From the NCBI GenBank assembly GCA_947454735.1, contig CANGLK010000010.1, positions 1 through 42,196 on the forward strand: 42,196 bases of DNA. Direction: 5' to 3'. Numbering within the stretch: position 1 is the first letter of the stretch; each line of letters starts with the position of its first letter. Both the position numbers and the translations under genes were made by a program. Below the pieces are notes generated by a model. It was not told where the DNA came from. It saw nothing but the letters and a program-made list of their open reading frames with translations, and did not search any database. The stretch comes from Candidatus Nanopelagicaceae bacterium. GTDB lineage: Bacteria > Actinomycetota > Actinomycetes > Nanopelagicales > Nanopelagicaceae. Positions 4,501-12,713 of the stretch are shown here, one piece after another.

Positions 4501-7500
4501 ATGGCGCTTCAATCCAATTACCCAAGCCCACAGGGTCTCTACGATCCTGCCCTCGAGCATGATGCATGCGGCGTTGCGATGGTGGCAACTCTCAACAAAG
4601 TTGCAACACATGAAATCGTCGCAAAGGCTCTTACCGCACTTCGCAATCTCGAGCACCGTGGGGCATCAGGTGCTGAACCAGATTCCGGTGATGGTGCAGG
4701 AATTCTTATTCGCGTTCCAGATGCTTTCTATCGCGCAGAAGTAAAGTTCACACTTCCTGCAGAAGGTTCCTATGCAACTGGTATTGCATTTATGGCTCAA
4801 GGAAAAGATCTCAAAGGCGAGATTGAAAAGTTAGCTACAGAAGAAGGTCTCACCATTCTTGGATGGCGCGAACTTCCCATTAACTCTGCTTCACTCGGCA
4901 AGACAGCGCTCTCTGTCATGCCAGATTTCCAGCAAGTATTTATCTCAGGCAATAATGGCGAAAGCGGTATTTCGCTCGATCGTAAAGTCTTCTGTCTTCG
5001 CAAGCGTGCTGAGCATGCGTTAGATCTCTACTTCCCATCACTTTCATCGCAGACAATCGTCTATAAGGGCATGCTTACAACAGGTCAGCTTGAAGAGTTC
5101 TTCCCTGATCTCAGCGATGAGCGAGTTGTTTCACCGCTTGCACTAGTTCACTCACGTTTTTCTACAAATACATTCCCATCGTGGCCACTTGCTCACCCTT
5201 ATCGATATATCGCACATAATGGTGAAATCAACACAGTTAAGGGAAACCGTAACTGGATGCGCGCCCGTGAATCACTACTTAAGAGCGAATACTTTGGTGA
5301 GGACCTCGATCGCATCTTCCCAATCGTTGAAATGTCTGGCTCAGACTCTGCATCATTCGATGAAGTTCTTGAGCTTCTCTACCTCGGTGGGCGCTCACTT
5401 CCACATTCAATTTTGATGATGATTCCGGAAGCGTGGGAGAACCATGCGACGATGTCGCAGAAGCGCCGCGATTTCTACGCATTCCATGCATCGATGATGG
5501 AGCCATGGGATGGTCCAGCGTGTGTGACATTTACCAATGGTCATCAGGTTGGCGCAGTTCTCGATCGTAATGGTCTTCGTCCTTCACGTTACTGGGTAAC
5601 AGATGGCGGTCTCGTTGTGCTTGCATCTGAGGTAGGAGTTCTTGATTTCCCTGCAGAGAAGATCGTCCGCAAGGGTCGCCTGCAGCCAGGAAAGATGTTC
5701 CTTGTCGATATCGAATCAGGTCGCATTATTGAAGATGATGAGATCAAGGATTCATTGGCAGATGCCGCGCCATATGGTCAGTGGCTCGCAGATGGAATGG
5801 TGAAGCTCTCTGAACTTCCTGCTCGTGAACACATCATCTATCCACATAAATCTGTTGTTCGTCGCCAGAAAGCATTTGGATATACAGAGGAAGAGCTCAA
5901 GATCATCGTCGCTCCGATGGCAAAGTCCGGGGGAGAAGCTCTTGGTTCGATGGGAACAGATTCTCCAATTGCAGCACTTTCTAATAAGCCACGTTTGCTC
6001 TTTGATTACTTCACACAGCTCTTTGCTCAGGTGACAAATCCACCACTCGATGCAATTCGTGAAGAATTGGTGACAAGCCTTGGTGGTTCTATTGGACCAG
6101 AGCACAACTTGCTCGATCCAGGACCTGATTCATGTAAGCAGATTTCACTCGCATTCCCGGTGATTGATAATGATGAGCTTGCAAAGATCATTAACATCAA
6201 TGTTGATGATGAGTATCCAGAGCTTGCTGCACATGTAGTGCGTGGACTATTCCCAGTAACCGGCGATGGCAACACACTTCGCAATCGCCTAGAAGAGATC
6301 AAGCTCGAAGTTTCTCAGGCGATTAAAGATGGCGCACATGTCATCGTTCTCTCAGATCGTGATGGCGATGCAGAGGATTGCCCAATTCCTTCACTCTTGC
6401 TCACAGCTGCAGTGCACCACCACTTAATCCGCGAGAAGACTCGTACCCAAGTTGGGCTCATCGTTGAAGCTGGCGATGTTCGCGAAGTTCACCATGTTGC
6501 ACTTCTTGTTGGATATGGCGCAGCAGCGGTAAATCCATACCTTGTTATGGAATCTGCAGAGGATCTCGTTCGACAGGGAGTCATCACTGGCATCTCTCCA
6601 GAGAAGGCTGTCCGCAACACAATTAAGGCGCTCGGTAAAGGCGTACTTAAGGTGATGTCAAAGATGGGAATCTCAACAATCTCCTCTTACACAGGTGCAC
6701 AAGTATTTGAAGCAATTGGTCTTGCGCAGAATGTTGTCGATGAGTTCTTCGTTGGCACAACTTCTCGCCTAGGTGGTGTCGATCTCGACGTTATCGCCGA
6801 GGAGACAATTAAGCGTCACTTCTTGGCCTATCCAGTAGGCGGCGAAATTCCAGGTGCTAAGAAGCTCCCAGTGGGTGGCGAGTACCAGTGGCGTCGCGAT
6901 GGCGAGCCACACTTGTTCAATCCAGAGACTGTCTTTGCGCTACAGCACTCAACTCGCAATAAGCGTTATGACATCTTTAAGCGCTACACCACAGGGGTTA
7001 ATGACCAGAGCACGGCGTTGATGACCCTTCGCGGACTCTTCGAATTTAAAGAACGTACTCCAATTTCAATCGATGAGGTTGAACCAATCTCAGAGATTGT
7101 GAAGCGATTCTCAACAGGTGCAATGTCCTACGGATCTGTATCTCAGGAAGTGCATGAGACTCTTGCTATCGCAATGAACCGCCTTGGTGCAAAATCCAAT
7201 ACAGGTGAGGGTGGAGAGGATCCAATTCGCTTTATTCCACTTGAAAATGGAGATTCAAAGCGCTCTGCAATTAAGCAGGTTGCATCTGGTCGATTCGGCG
7301 TGACTAGTAATTACCTGGTCAATGCAGATGATATTCAGATCAAGATTGCACAGGGCGCAAAGCCTGGTGAAGGTGGTCAGCTTCCCGGTAACAAGGTATA
7401 TCCATGGGTTGCAAAGGCTCGTTACTCAACTCCTGGAGTCGGACTTATTTCACCTCCGCCTCACCACGATATCTATTCCATTGAAGATCTTGCACAGTTG

Positions 7501-9012: not shown

Positions 9013-10459
9013 TCCAAAGGGATTTATGACAACCCCACGAGAGACACCTAAGCGTCGCCCCGTTGATGTGCGCATCCAAGATTGGCGCGAAGTCTACGAA
9101 CCACAGAGCTTCGAACACTTGCAGAAGCAAGCTGGTCGTTGCATGGATTGCGGTATTCCTTTCTGTCATAACGGATGCCCACTCGGCAATCTCATTCCTG
9201 AGTGGAATGACCTCATGTGGCGTGGATATAAATCAGATGCGCTCGATCGTTTGCATGCAACCAATAACTTTCCAGAGTTCACTGGTCGCCTCTGCCCAGC
9301 TCCATGCGAAACTGCATGCGTGGTTGGAATCAATCGCGATGCAGTCACAATCAAGCAGGTTGAACTTCGTACCATTGAAGAGGCCTTTGGATTTGGCGCA
9401 GTTAAGCCGATGATTCCAGATCGACTCACTGGTAAGACTGTCGCTGTCATCGGTTCAGGACCAGCAGGTCTTGCAGCTGCGCAGCAACTTACTCGCGCAG
9501 GTCACACCGTCGCAGTCTTTGAACGTGCAGATAAAATTGGCGGGCTACTTCGCTACGGAATTCCTGAATTTAAGATGGAGAAGAACATTCTCGATCGCCG
9601 CCTCGCCCAGATGGAGCAAGAGGGAACACGTTTTCGTCCTGGAGTTGCTGCAGGTAGCGACATCACAGGACAGGCGCTCCGTACTCGTTATGACGCAGTG
9701 CTTGTCGCAATCGGTGCAACACAGTGGCGCGACCTCAACGTTAAGGGCCGTGATCTCAAGGGGATCTACCAAGCGATGGAGTTCTTGCCATGGGGAAATA
9801 AGCAAGCCCTTGGTGAAGTTGAGACACCACCAATCAACGTTGCAGGTAAGCATGTTGTGATTCTCGGTGGCGGAGATACCGGTGCAGATTGCCTCGGTAC
9901 TTCAATTCGTCAGGGCGCAGCAAGCATTACTCAACTCGAGATCATGCCGCAGCCATCAGAGGATCGACCAGCAGGTCAGCCTTGGCCTACATATCCAATG
10001 ATCTTCCGCATCTCTAGCGCACATGAAGAGCTTGATAATCGAATCTTCGGTGTATCAACAGAGGAGTTCCTCGGAGATGAGAACGGAAATCTTCGCGCAC
10101 TCAAGATTGTTGAAACTCAGTTCGTGAATGGAAAGTTTGAATCTATTCCCGGAACAGAGCGCGAACTCAAAGCAGACTTTGCATTCTTGGCAATGGGCTT
10201 CACTGGTCCAGAGAAGTCTGTACTTCTCGATCAACTTGAGATCGAACTCGATGATCGTGGAAATATCGCACGTAATGGCGAGTTCCAAACAAATCAAGAG
10301 GACGTCTTCGTTGCAGGTGATGCTGGCCGTGGACAATCACTCATTGTCTGGGCAATCGCAGAGGGTCGTTCTGCAGCAGCAGCGCTCGATAGATATTTGA
10401 TGGGGGAGACTCAACTTCCTTCTCCCATCGAGCCAACGACTCGTCAGATGTTGGTCTAA
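9005..10459 (+). CDS. gltD: glutamate synthase (NADPH) small subunit
   Basis: This subunit takes electrons from NADPH through FAD and iron-sulfur clusters to the large subunit. I start it at ATG 9005 because GGAGG at 8991-8995 lies nine bases upstream; a TTG at 8996 in the same frame would touch the ribosome site. This gives 484 residues, overlapping gltB by eight bases. N-terminal cluster cysteines are C46, C49, C54, C58 and C97, C101, C105. The FAD dinucleotide fold is [10 protein letters not shown] at 150-159, and the NADPH fold is GGGDTG at 288-293. Confidence 0.96.
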
Positions 10460-10482
10460 AGCCATATAAATCACAGGTGAAA

Positions 10483-10502
10483 ACTGGCCAGTACTGGCCG
10501 GT
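10483..10502. promoter_or_regulatory. near-perfect palindrome at the pyk promoter
   Basis: ACTGGCCAGTACTGGCCGGT is a 20-bp dyad with one mismatched pair (T10485 with G10500). It has almost no loop, so it looks like a protein-binding operator and not an RNA hairpin. It ends four bases before a possible -10 (TTTATT, 10507-10512) and would cover the -35 region of pyk. A closely similar dyad lies before gap at 34609-34633. Confidence 0.5.
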
Positions 10503-10530
10503 CACATTTATTAATAGATAAGGTACGAAC

Positions 10531-11970
10531 ATGCGCCGCGCGAAAATTGTATGCACGATGGGTCCAGCCGTTGAATCTCCAGAGAAGGTGCGAGAACTCA
10601 TCGCAGCTGGAATGAATATGGCCCGCCTCAACCTCTCACATGGTTCCTACGAAGAGCACCAGGGACGCCTAGATCGCGTCCGTGAGGCTGCAAAGGAGTC
10701 GGGAAAGGCAGTTGCAATCCTCGTCGACCTTCAGGGTCCAAAGATTCGTTTAGCACGCTTTGAGAATGGTCCACATGAGCTCTTCCGTGGAGATATCTTC
10801 ACAATCACCACCGATGATGTTCCAGGCACTAAAGAGCGCGTAGGAACTACCTATAAAGGTCTTCCAGGAGATTGCAAGCCTGGCGATTTCATCATGATCG
10901 ATGATGGCAAGGTCACTGTTGAGGTCATCGAAGTTAAAGGCAACGACGTTATTACTAAGTGCATCTACCCTGGCATGGTCAGCAACAACAAGGGACTGAA
11001 CCTCCCAGGCGTTGCGGTCTCAGTGCCAGCGATGTCTGAGAAAGATGGAGATGATCTTCGTTGGGGCCTTCGTGCTGGCGCTGATTTCATCGCTCTCTCA
11101 TTTGTACGTAATGCTGCAGATATTAAAGATGTCCATGCAATCATGGATGAGGTTGGAATTCGCGTTCCAGTAATCGCAAAGATTGAAAAGCCACAAGCTG
11201 TTGCAAACTTGCAGGAGATTGTCGATGCATTTGATGGCATCATGGTCGCTCGTGGCGATCTCGGCGTTGAGATGCCAATTGAAGATGTTCCGATGGTTCA
11301 GAAGCGTTGCGTTGAACTCGCACGCGATGCAGCTAAGCCGGTCATCGTTGCTACTCAGATGCTCGATTCAATGATTACAAATTCTCGTCCAACTCGCGCA
11401 GAGGCAACTGACTGTGCCAATGCTGTGCTTGATGGCGCAGATGCTTTGATGCTTTCAGGCGAAACATCTGTCGGTGACTTTGCAATTGAAGCAGTCCAGA
11501 CGATGGCTCGCATTATCGAAAAGACTGAACAAGAGGGTCTTGATCGCATTCGTCCTTTGTCACATGCTCCTCGCACAAAGGGTGGCGCTGTAACAAAGGC
11601 TGCTGCTGAAGTAGGCGAAGTTCTCGGTGCGAAGTACCTCGTAACATTTACTCAATCTGGTGACTCTGCTCGCCGTATCTCACGACTGCGCTCTGCAATT
11701 CCAATTCTTGCAATCACTCCAGAGACTGGTACATATAACCGTCTTGCTCTCTCTTGGGGAATCGAGCCAATGATCTCTCCCATGGTCAAGCACACAGATG
11801 ACATGGTTCTTCAGGCAGATCGCATCTTGATCGAGACTAAGCGCGCTGCAATCGGCGAGCAGGTCATGATCGTCGCTGGTGCACCTCCAGGAATTCCAGG
11901 CTCTACCAACGCTATGCGTGTCCACACAGTGGGCGATGCAGTTAATGGCGTCGTTCCTGCCTACAAGTAA
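10531..11970 (+). CDS. pyk: pyruvate kinase
   Basis: This enzyme turns phosphoenolpyruvate and ADP into pyruvate and ATP, the last step of glycolysis. The 479-residue protein begins with the conserved MRRAKIVCTMGP stretch; R32, N34 and S36 (ARLNLSHG) match the K+/ATP site. Later come the active-site lysine region AKIEKPQAV and the MARGDLGVE metal site. The C-terminal allosteric domain is present. ATG 10531 follows AAGG at 10520-10523. The last eight codons are repeated in degraded form just after the stop. Confidence 0.97.
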   Translation: MRRAKIVCTMGPAVESPEKVRELIAAGMNMARLNLSHGSYEEHQGRLDRVREAAKESGKAVAILVDLQGPKIRLARFENGPHELFRGDIFTITTDDVPGTKERVGTTYKGLPGDCKPGDFIMIDDGKVTVEVIEVKGNDVITKCIYPGMVSNNKGLNLPGVAVSVPAMSEKDGDDLRWGLRAGADFIALSFVRNAADIKDVHAIMDEVGIRVPVIAKIEKPQAVANLQEIVDAFDGIMVARGDLGVEMPIEDVPMVQKRCVELARDAAKPVIVATQMLDSMITNSRPTRAEATDCANAVLDGADALMLSGETSVGDFAIEAVQTMARIIEKTEQEGLDRIRPLSHAPRTKGGAVTKAAAEVGEVLGAKYLVTFTQSGDSARRISRLRSAIPILAITPETGTYNRLALSWGIEPMISPMVKHTDDMVLQADRILIETKRAAIGEQVMIVAGAPPGIPGSTNAMRVHTVGDAVNGVVPAYK

Positions 11971-12003
11971 TTCAGGAGATGGCGTCGTTCCAGCCTAGAA
12001 ATA
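11945..12003 (+). repeat. direct repeat of the pyk 3' end
   Basis: Two 25-base copies, 11945-11969 and 11979-12003, match at 22 of 25 positions, the first 13 exactly (ATGGCGTCGTTCC), with a 34-base period. The first copy encodes the C-terminal residues of pyruvate kinase. The second lies after the stop, is out of frame with it, and carries a TAG. It looks like a decayed tandem duplication next to the tRNA. Confidence 0.8.
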
Positions 12004-12026: not shown

Positions 12027-12099
12027 GCCTCGGTACTCCAACGGTAGAGAGGGCAGTCTCAAACACTGCATAGTGTCGGTTCGAATCCGACTCGGGGCA
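12027..12099 (+). tRNA. tRNA with CAA anticodon and short variable loop (nominal Leu)
   Basis: A 73-base cloverleaf can be folded by eye. The acceptor pairs 12027-12033 with 12092-12098, including two G-U pairs. The D stem is CTC/GAG. The anticodon stem GCAGT/ACTGC encloses the loop CTCAAAC, placing CAA at positions 34-36 (12060-12062). The variable region is only five bases (12070-12074). The T arm is GTCGG-TTCGAAT-CCGAC. The discriminator base is A and no CCA is encoded. CAA reads UUG (leucine), but bacterial tRNA-Leu normally has a long variable arm, so the identity is uncertain. A T-run at 12106-12110 may end transcription. Confidence 0.82.
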
Positions 12100-12137
12100 C
12101 TCTAGTTTTTCCACGGTCGCGAGAGGATGATTCAGAT

Positions 12138-12713
12138 ATGAGCGTCCGAATTCTCGTTGCAGAAGATGAAGCGTTAATCCGCATGGATCTCATCGAGATG
12201 CTTCAAGAGGCGGGATATACCGTCTGCGCTGAGGCAACCAATGGCGAAGAGGCGATTGCACTCGCCCATGAACATAAGCCTGATCTCTGTATTCTCGATG
12301 TGAAGATGCCTGTACTCGATGGAATTTCTGCAGCAGAGAAAATCATCTCTATCGCGCCAGTCCTGATGTTGACCGCCTTTAGCCAGCGCGAGCTGGTCGA
12401 GCGGGCGCGCGATGCTGGAGTCATGGCCTATGTTGTTAAGCCATTTTCGATCAGCGATTTAATACCTGCCATCGAGATTGCTATGAGCCGCCACATTCAG
12501 ATGAAGTCGCTCGCAGATGAAGTCGCCGATCTCCATGAACGACTTGAGACTCGCAAGATTATTGATCGCGCTAAGGGAATTTTGATGAAGGCGCTTAACC
12601 TCTCAGAACCTGAGGCCTTTACCTGGATTCAGCGCGCTGCGATGGATAGACGTCTGACTATGAAGGAAGTAGCTCAAGCGGTCATCTCTCCAGAGGCTGC
12701 ACTCGACCGCTAA
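12138..12713 (+). CDS. pdtaR: ANTAR-domain response regulator (PdtaR-like)
   Basis: This 191-residue protein has an N-terminal receiver domain (about 1-120) with acidic residues E9 and D10, phospho-acceptor D54 (ILDVKMP), T79 and K101. A C-terminal ANTAR RNA-binding domain (about 125-185) contains RKIIDRAKGILM and the later A-F-x-W-I-Q-R-A-A pattern. ANTAR proteins bind paired hexaloop hairpins in mRNA leaders and prevent termination when phosphorylated by a partner histidine kinase. No kinase gene is in the window. Its place beside pyk matches the mycobacterial Rv1626 neighbourhood as I recall it. Confidence 0.92.
   Translation: MSVRILVAEDEALIRMDLIEMLQEAGYTVCAEATNGEEAIALAHEHKPDLCILDVKMPVLDGISAAEKIISIAPVLMLTAFSQRELVERARDAGVMAYVVKPFSISDLIPAIEIAMSRHIQMKSLADEVADLHERLETRKIIDRAKGILMKALNLSEPEAFTWIQRAAMDRRLTMKEVAQAVISPEAALDR

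Follow-up and report, generated by a model that had tools for sequence, protein, structure and literature searches.

The gene at positions 12027..12099 on the forward strand of the window (the whole 42,196-nt stretch of DNA analysed here) is almost certainly a genuine tRNALeu(CAA), the single one for UUG, and is most likely charged by the ordinary LeuRS. The encoded tRNA has no long variable arm and thereby departs from the textbook rule for bacterial tRNALeu, as the preliminary description of this DNA had pointed out.

As a single gene it is ordinary within its lineage; the interest lies in the pattern. Short-armed tRNALeu are common across actinobacteria, in place of the long-armed kind. We consider it likely that in much of Actinomycetota the UUR-reading tRNALeu abandoned the arm at least twice independently, with short and long forms replacing each other at a single conserved locus, also inside one genus, and hence that LeuRS of this phylum derives leucine identity solely from A73 and the core, which contradicts the rule that confines short tRNALeu to animal mitochondria. 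On the main reading, this phylum has dispensed with the long arm of the UUR-reading tRNALeu, and an ordinary bacterial LeuRS most likely adds leucine by reading A73 together with the L-shape core (A14, A15-U48, G18G19, A20a).

Fold, anticodon and leucine identity

ARAGORN calls the gene as tRNA-Leu at 12027-12100, with CAA at position 34 (12060..12062, in the loop CUCAAAC). The Rfam tRNA model RF00005 matches 12027-12099 over its full length (model positions 1-71) with 52.1 bits, well over the gathering score of 29 (E 1.7e-8). Both agree with the 73-base class I tRNA of the preliminary description, and neither offers another anticodon through a better fold, the result that had been named there as telling against it. 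The acceptor, anticodon and T stems have 7, 5 and 5 bp; the D arm has a 3-bp stem followed by a C.A mismatch at 13-22, and both D-arm features are common to class II tRNALeu. No CCA is encoded. A scan for promoters and terminators gave no useful signal, with no consensus promoter found upstream of the gene.

The variable region, AUAGU (12070..12074), is 5 nt long, compared with 11-15 nt in class II tRNALeu and short of the arm of at least 10 nt that defines that class; its last base, U48, pairs with A15 in our numbering script. The discriminator base (12099) is A73, a major leucine determinant, and the combination of A73 with a short arm separates the molecule from tRNASer and tRNASec, which have G73 and a long arm. 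The 7/5 arrangement of acceptor and T stems, paired throughout 85 distinct short CAA homologues, likewise differs from the 8/4 or 9/3 of Allo-tRNAs. Across this set, pairing holds in 99.3% of stem cells, and many pairs show compensatory changes.

Leucine identity in Escherichia coli is carried by A73, the A15-U48 pair, G18G19, A20a and contacts between the D and T loops, and E. coli tRNALeu variants without the long arm are still active, so the arm is not a determinant (PMC9976931). The numbering script finds all the E. coli leucine determinants in the window tRNA (A73, A14, A15-U48, G18G19 and A20a). Among the distinct homologues A14, G18G19 and A73 are present in 85 of 85, A20a in 77 and A15-U48 in 83, the remaining two having G15-C48. 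Such a covarying replacement of A15-U48 by G15-C48 is seen in the short tRNALeu(CAA) of two genomes of genus g19 (L292 and L293) and bears on whether leucylation needs A15-U48. SerRS reads G73 plus the long arm (PMC7609411); loss of the arm should therefore not cause confusion with tRNASer. Exactly one protein scores over the LeuRS family cut-off in each of eight genomes, and we infer that this enzyme charges the window tRNA.

The preliminary description also raised the prospect that the tRNA carries another amino acid, so that UUG would be reassigned or ambiguously decoded. The class I shape fits such a reading, as does a feature of the complete genome G013, from the same genus, where the six determinants are complete in all four tRNALeu and, among the other tRNAs, only in tRNAAla(UGC). 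Pair 3-70, however, is C-G in 83 of the 85 distinct short CAA sequences, unlike the G3-U70 of tRNAAla, and the tRNA alternates with a long tRNALeu(CAA) at one locus, even inside a genus. The codon itself also reads as leucine: for 84 UUG codons and modest counts against a single outgroup, E. coli, the commonest aligned residue was leucine (34), followed by methionine (8) and isoleucine (6), a spectrum similar to that at CUN codons. On this comparison code reassignment of UUG was rejected, and with every leucine determinant in place we regard charging with another amino acid as very improbable. UUG and UUA together make up 128 of the 844 leucine codons in 16 genes of the window.

Leucine tRNA set and genomic setting

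The draft genome that contains the window is 89% complete; its tRNALeu set consists of class II GAG and UAG (the latter seen on two contig ends) and class I UAA and CAA. The absence of a class II CAA copy rests on G013, whose sequence is complete in one contig and which belongs, like the window, to the genus of Ca. Planktophila (Ca. Planktophila versatilis included), and on the named complete Planktophila genomes; no class II tRNALeu(CAA) is found in any of them. G013 has long GAG, long UAG, short UAA and short CAA tRNALeu and no others, so that class II is represented by the CUN readers alone (GAG and UAG) and the UUR codons are served solely by short-armed tRNAs. The suggestion that the window gene is a second leucine tRNA of odd shape thus holds for the shape and fails for 'second', since it is the sole CAA tRNA. 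Most genomes of the genus have a nearly identical tRNA, and some drafts lack it.

Upstream lies pyk, encoding pyruvate kinase (10531..11970, forward strand; Pfam PK and PK_C), a neighbour at many related loci. Downstream lies a gene for a pdtaR-like response regulator with an ANTAR RNA-binding domain (12138..12713, forward strand; Pfam Response_reg and ANTAR), next to the tRNA class-wide. In the window genus pyk, the tRNA and pdtaR follow one another on one strand; most other genera have the tRNA and pdtaR in divergent orientation.

The linkage of tRNA and pdtaR, kept through most of the class, is what could be expected of a tRNA-like regulatory RNA, for example a partner of the adjoining ANTAR regulator, rather than a decoder. 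Yet the ordinary long tRNALeu(CAA) is linked to pdtaR in the same way, so that the linkage points to no special role for the short form, and removal of the gene would leave no dedicated UUG reader, although wobble would let the UAA tRNA read UUG. Conservation, the maintained structure and the alternation with the long form all speak against the non-canonical tRNA-like RNA that had been proposed, and we give a regulatory function in place of decoding very little credence.

The duplicated pyk end beside the tRNA, noticed earlier, is real: a 34-bp tandem direct repeat (11936..12003, forward strand) lies between pyk and the tRNA, with copies at 11936-11969 and 11970-12003 that are 79% identical. 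It had been taken as a possible mark of horizontal arrival. That the gene is an extra tRNA brought in by a phage or an island would accord with the 18 viral contigs that carry a short tRNALeu(CAA), several of them with large tRNA arrays. But the tRNA occupies one locus throughout the genus and the class, and the repeat is private to this strain, being absent from all 12 relatives inspected; arrival as an extra tRNA is accordingly most unlikely, while ancient exchange of tRNALeu(CAA) between lineages is possible.

Two further records are worth mentioning. The viral contig L369 (IMGVR_UViG_3300037851_000590), with ∼29 tRNA genes, encodes tRNALeu with short arms for the anticodons CAA, UAA, CAG and GAG, of 76-77 nt. 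ARAGORN also calls three tRNASer on it that are unusually short (UGA, CGA and GGA; 72-74 nt, with G73), next to an ordinary long tRNASer(GCU); the regions concerned are 5906-6133 and 10187-10599. A class I-like tRNASer would be odder than a short tRNALeu. The other record (CAMCYA010000004.1, locus L133), which has Bifidobacterium breve in its title, contains a pyk of Planktophila type with 80% identity to that of the window, along with an identical tRNA, and is probably mislabelled.

Distribution and origin of the short arm

Recognisable homologues of the short CAA tRNA occur in other families of the class, and other classes of the phylum also have short CAA or UAA tRNALeu. A pattern scan of named genomes gave at least 80 loci; the matches listed are, by their record titles, all from actinobacteria, among them Streptomyces, Micromonospora, Salinispora, Frankia, Nocardioides, Cellulomonas, Actinoplanes and Planktophila. 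With a pattern accepting both forms, whose matched strings were sorted by hand on length and sequence, we found a short tRNALeu(CAA) in 64 of 109 genomes of the class, a long one in 36, neither in nine and both in none. Independent occurrence would predict both forms in ∼21 genomes, a descriptive expectation that ignores the relatedness of the 109.

In the other genera the long CAA form sits at the same site, adjoining pdtaR and often pyk, so that the short and long forms appear as alternative occupants of one locus. Genus g19 (family f19), which appears to be Streptomyces judging from its bldA-like UAA tRNA among other signs, contains both short-CAA and long-CAA genomes. The tRNALeu(UAA) is likewise either short or long, and each of the four possible pairings of a short or long CAA with a short or long UAA occurs.

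A tree of 106 tRNALeu cores (65 columns, with arm and anticodon removed) places nearly all short CAA and UAA tRNAs in one group and gathers the long ones in a second; the division has starred support (98/93), and support within the groups is weak. The short CAA tRNAs of family f20 (L284, L285 and L286) are distinct in sequence and fall with the long-armed group, which implies a second, separate loss. From the core sequences we infer that the short arm probably arose by at least two arm losses. A long-armed tRNALeu(UAA) of genome G442 (L343) is oddly placed within the short group, at the end of a long branch; regain of the arm is possible, or the placement is an artefact of the tree. Our guess is that tRNAs of different groups came to occupy one locus through gene conversion or recombinational replacement.

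Least probable of all is that the window gene is what remains of a class II tRNALeu copy, decayed or still degenerating: other genera do have a long-armed CAA tRNA at this locus, as the preliminary description had foreseen for such a case, and the arm loss in f20 is nested with long forms, but the near-identity within the genus, the paired and compensated stems of the 85 homologues and the lack of any other CAA tRNA are not those of a remnant. A tRNA pseudogene would have broken pairs, poor conservation and a redundant function, none of which describes 12027..12099.

Comparison with known leucine tRNAs

A 2023 review allows short tRNALeu in animal mitochondria only (PMC9976931). Against this rule the phylum-wide pattern stands as an exception that has drawn little notice: in the open-access literature we found no paper describing the trait, of which subscription journals or databases may hold notice. 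The long-arm rule is broken in a large part of a bacterial phylum, antibiotic producers and abundant freshwater bacteria among them, and annotators should not take short-armed tRNALeu genes for errors or code changes. Near relatives that differ in the arm make natural pairs, in which the purpose of the long arm becomes directly testable; candidate roles are SerRS exclusion, stability, editing, and interaction with tRNA-targeting toxins or modifying enzymes.

Bacterial class II tRNALeu, for example E. coli leuZ, a tRNALeu(UAA), have A73, A14, A15-U48, G18G19, A20a and the 13-22 mismatch in common with the window tRNA. They also share with it the GGNAGA motif of the D loop and a leucine codon, and the long CAA form of sister genera shares its genomic locus. 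Besides the variable region, the two kinds differ in the D arm, with C12-G23 and C13.A22 here versus G12-C23 and G13.A22 in class II tRNALeu.

Short or apparently short forms have surfaced before in the phylum. A mycobacterial cluster tRNALeu(UAG) (PMC6582537), also actinobacterial, has a short variable loop, but it is a supernumerary copy that accompanies a normal long UAG tRNA and not a sole reader. In Mycobacterium tuberculosis long loops are reported especially in tRNALeu-2, 3 and 5 (PMC11541572), which implies that the remaining tRNALeu are short; the short forms are not discussed there. The bldA tRNALeu(UAA) of Streptomyces is another UUR reader of the phylum; the putative bldA-type genes of g19 are long-armed, and in several genomes a short CAA tRNA accompanies them. 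The closest parallel in form is animal mitochondrial tRNALeu(UUR), which likewise lacks the long arm and draws its identity from A73 and A14 (PMC9976931); here, in contrast, the gene lies on a bacterial chromosome, the cloverleaf is fully paired and the CUN isoacceptors of the genus still have long arms.
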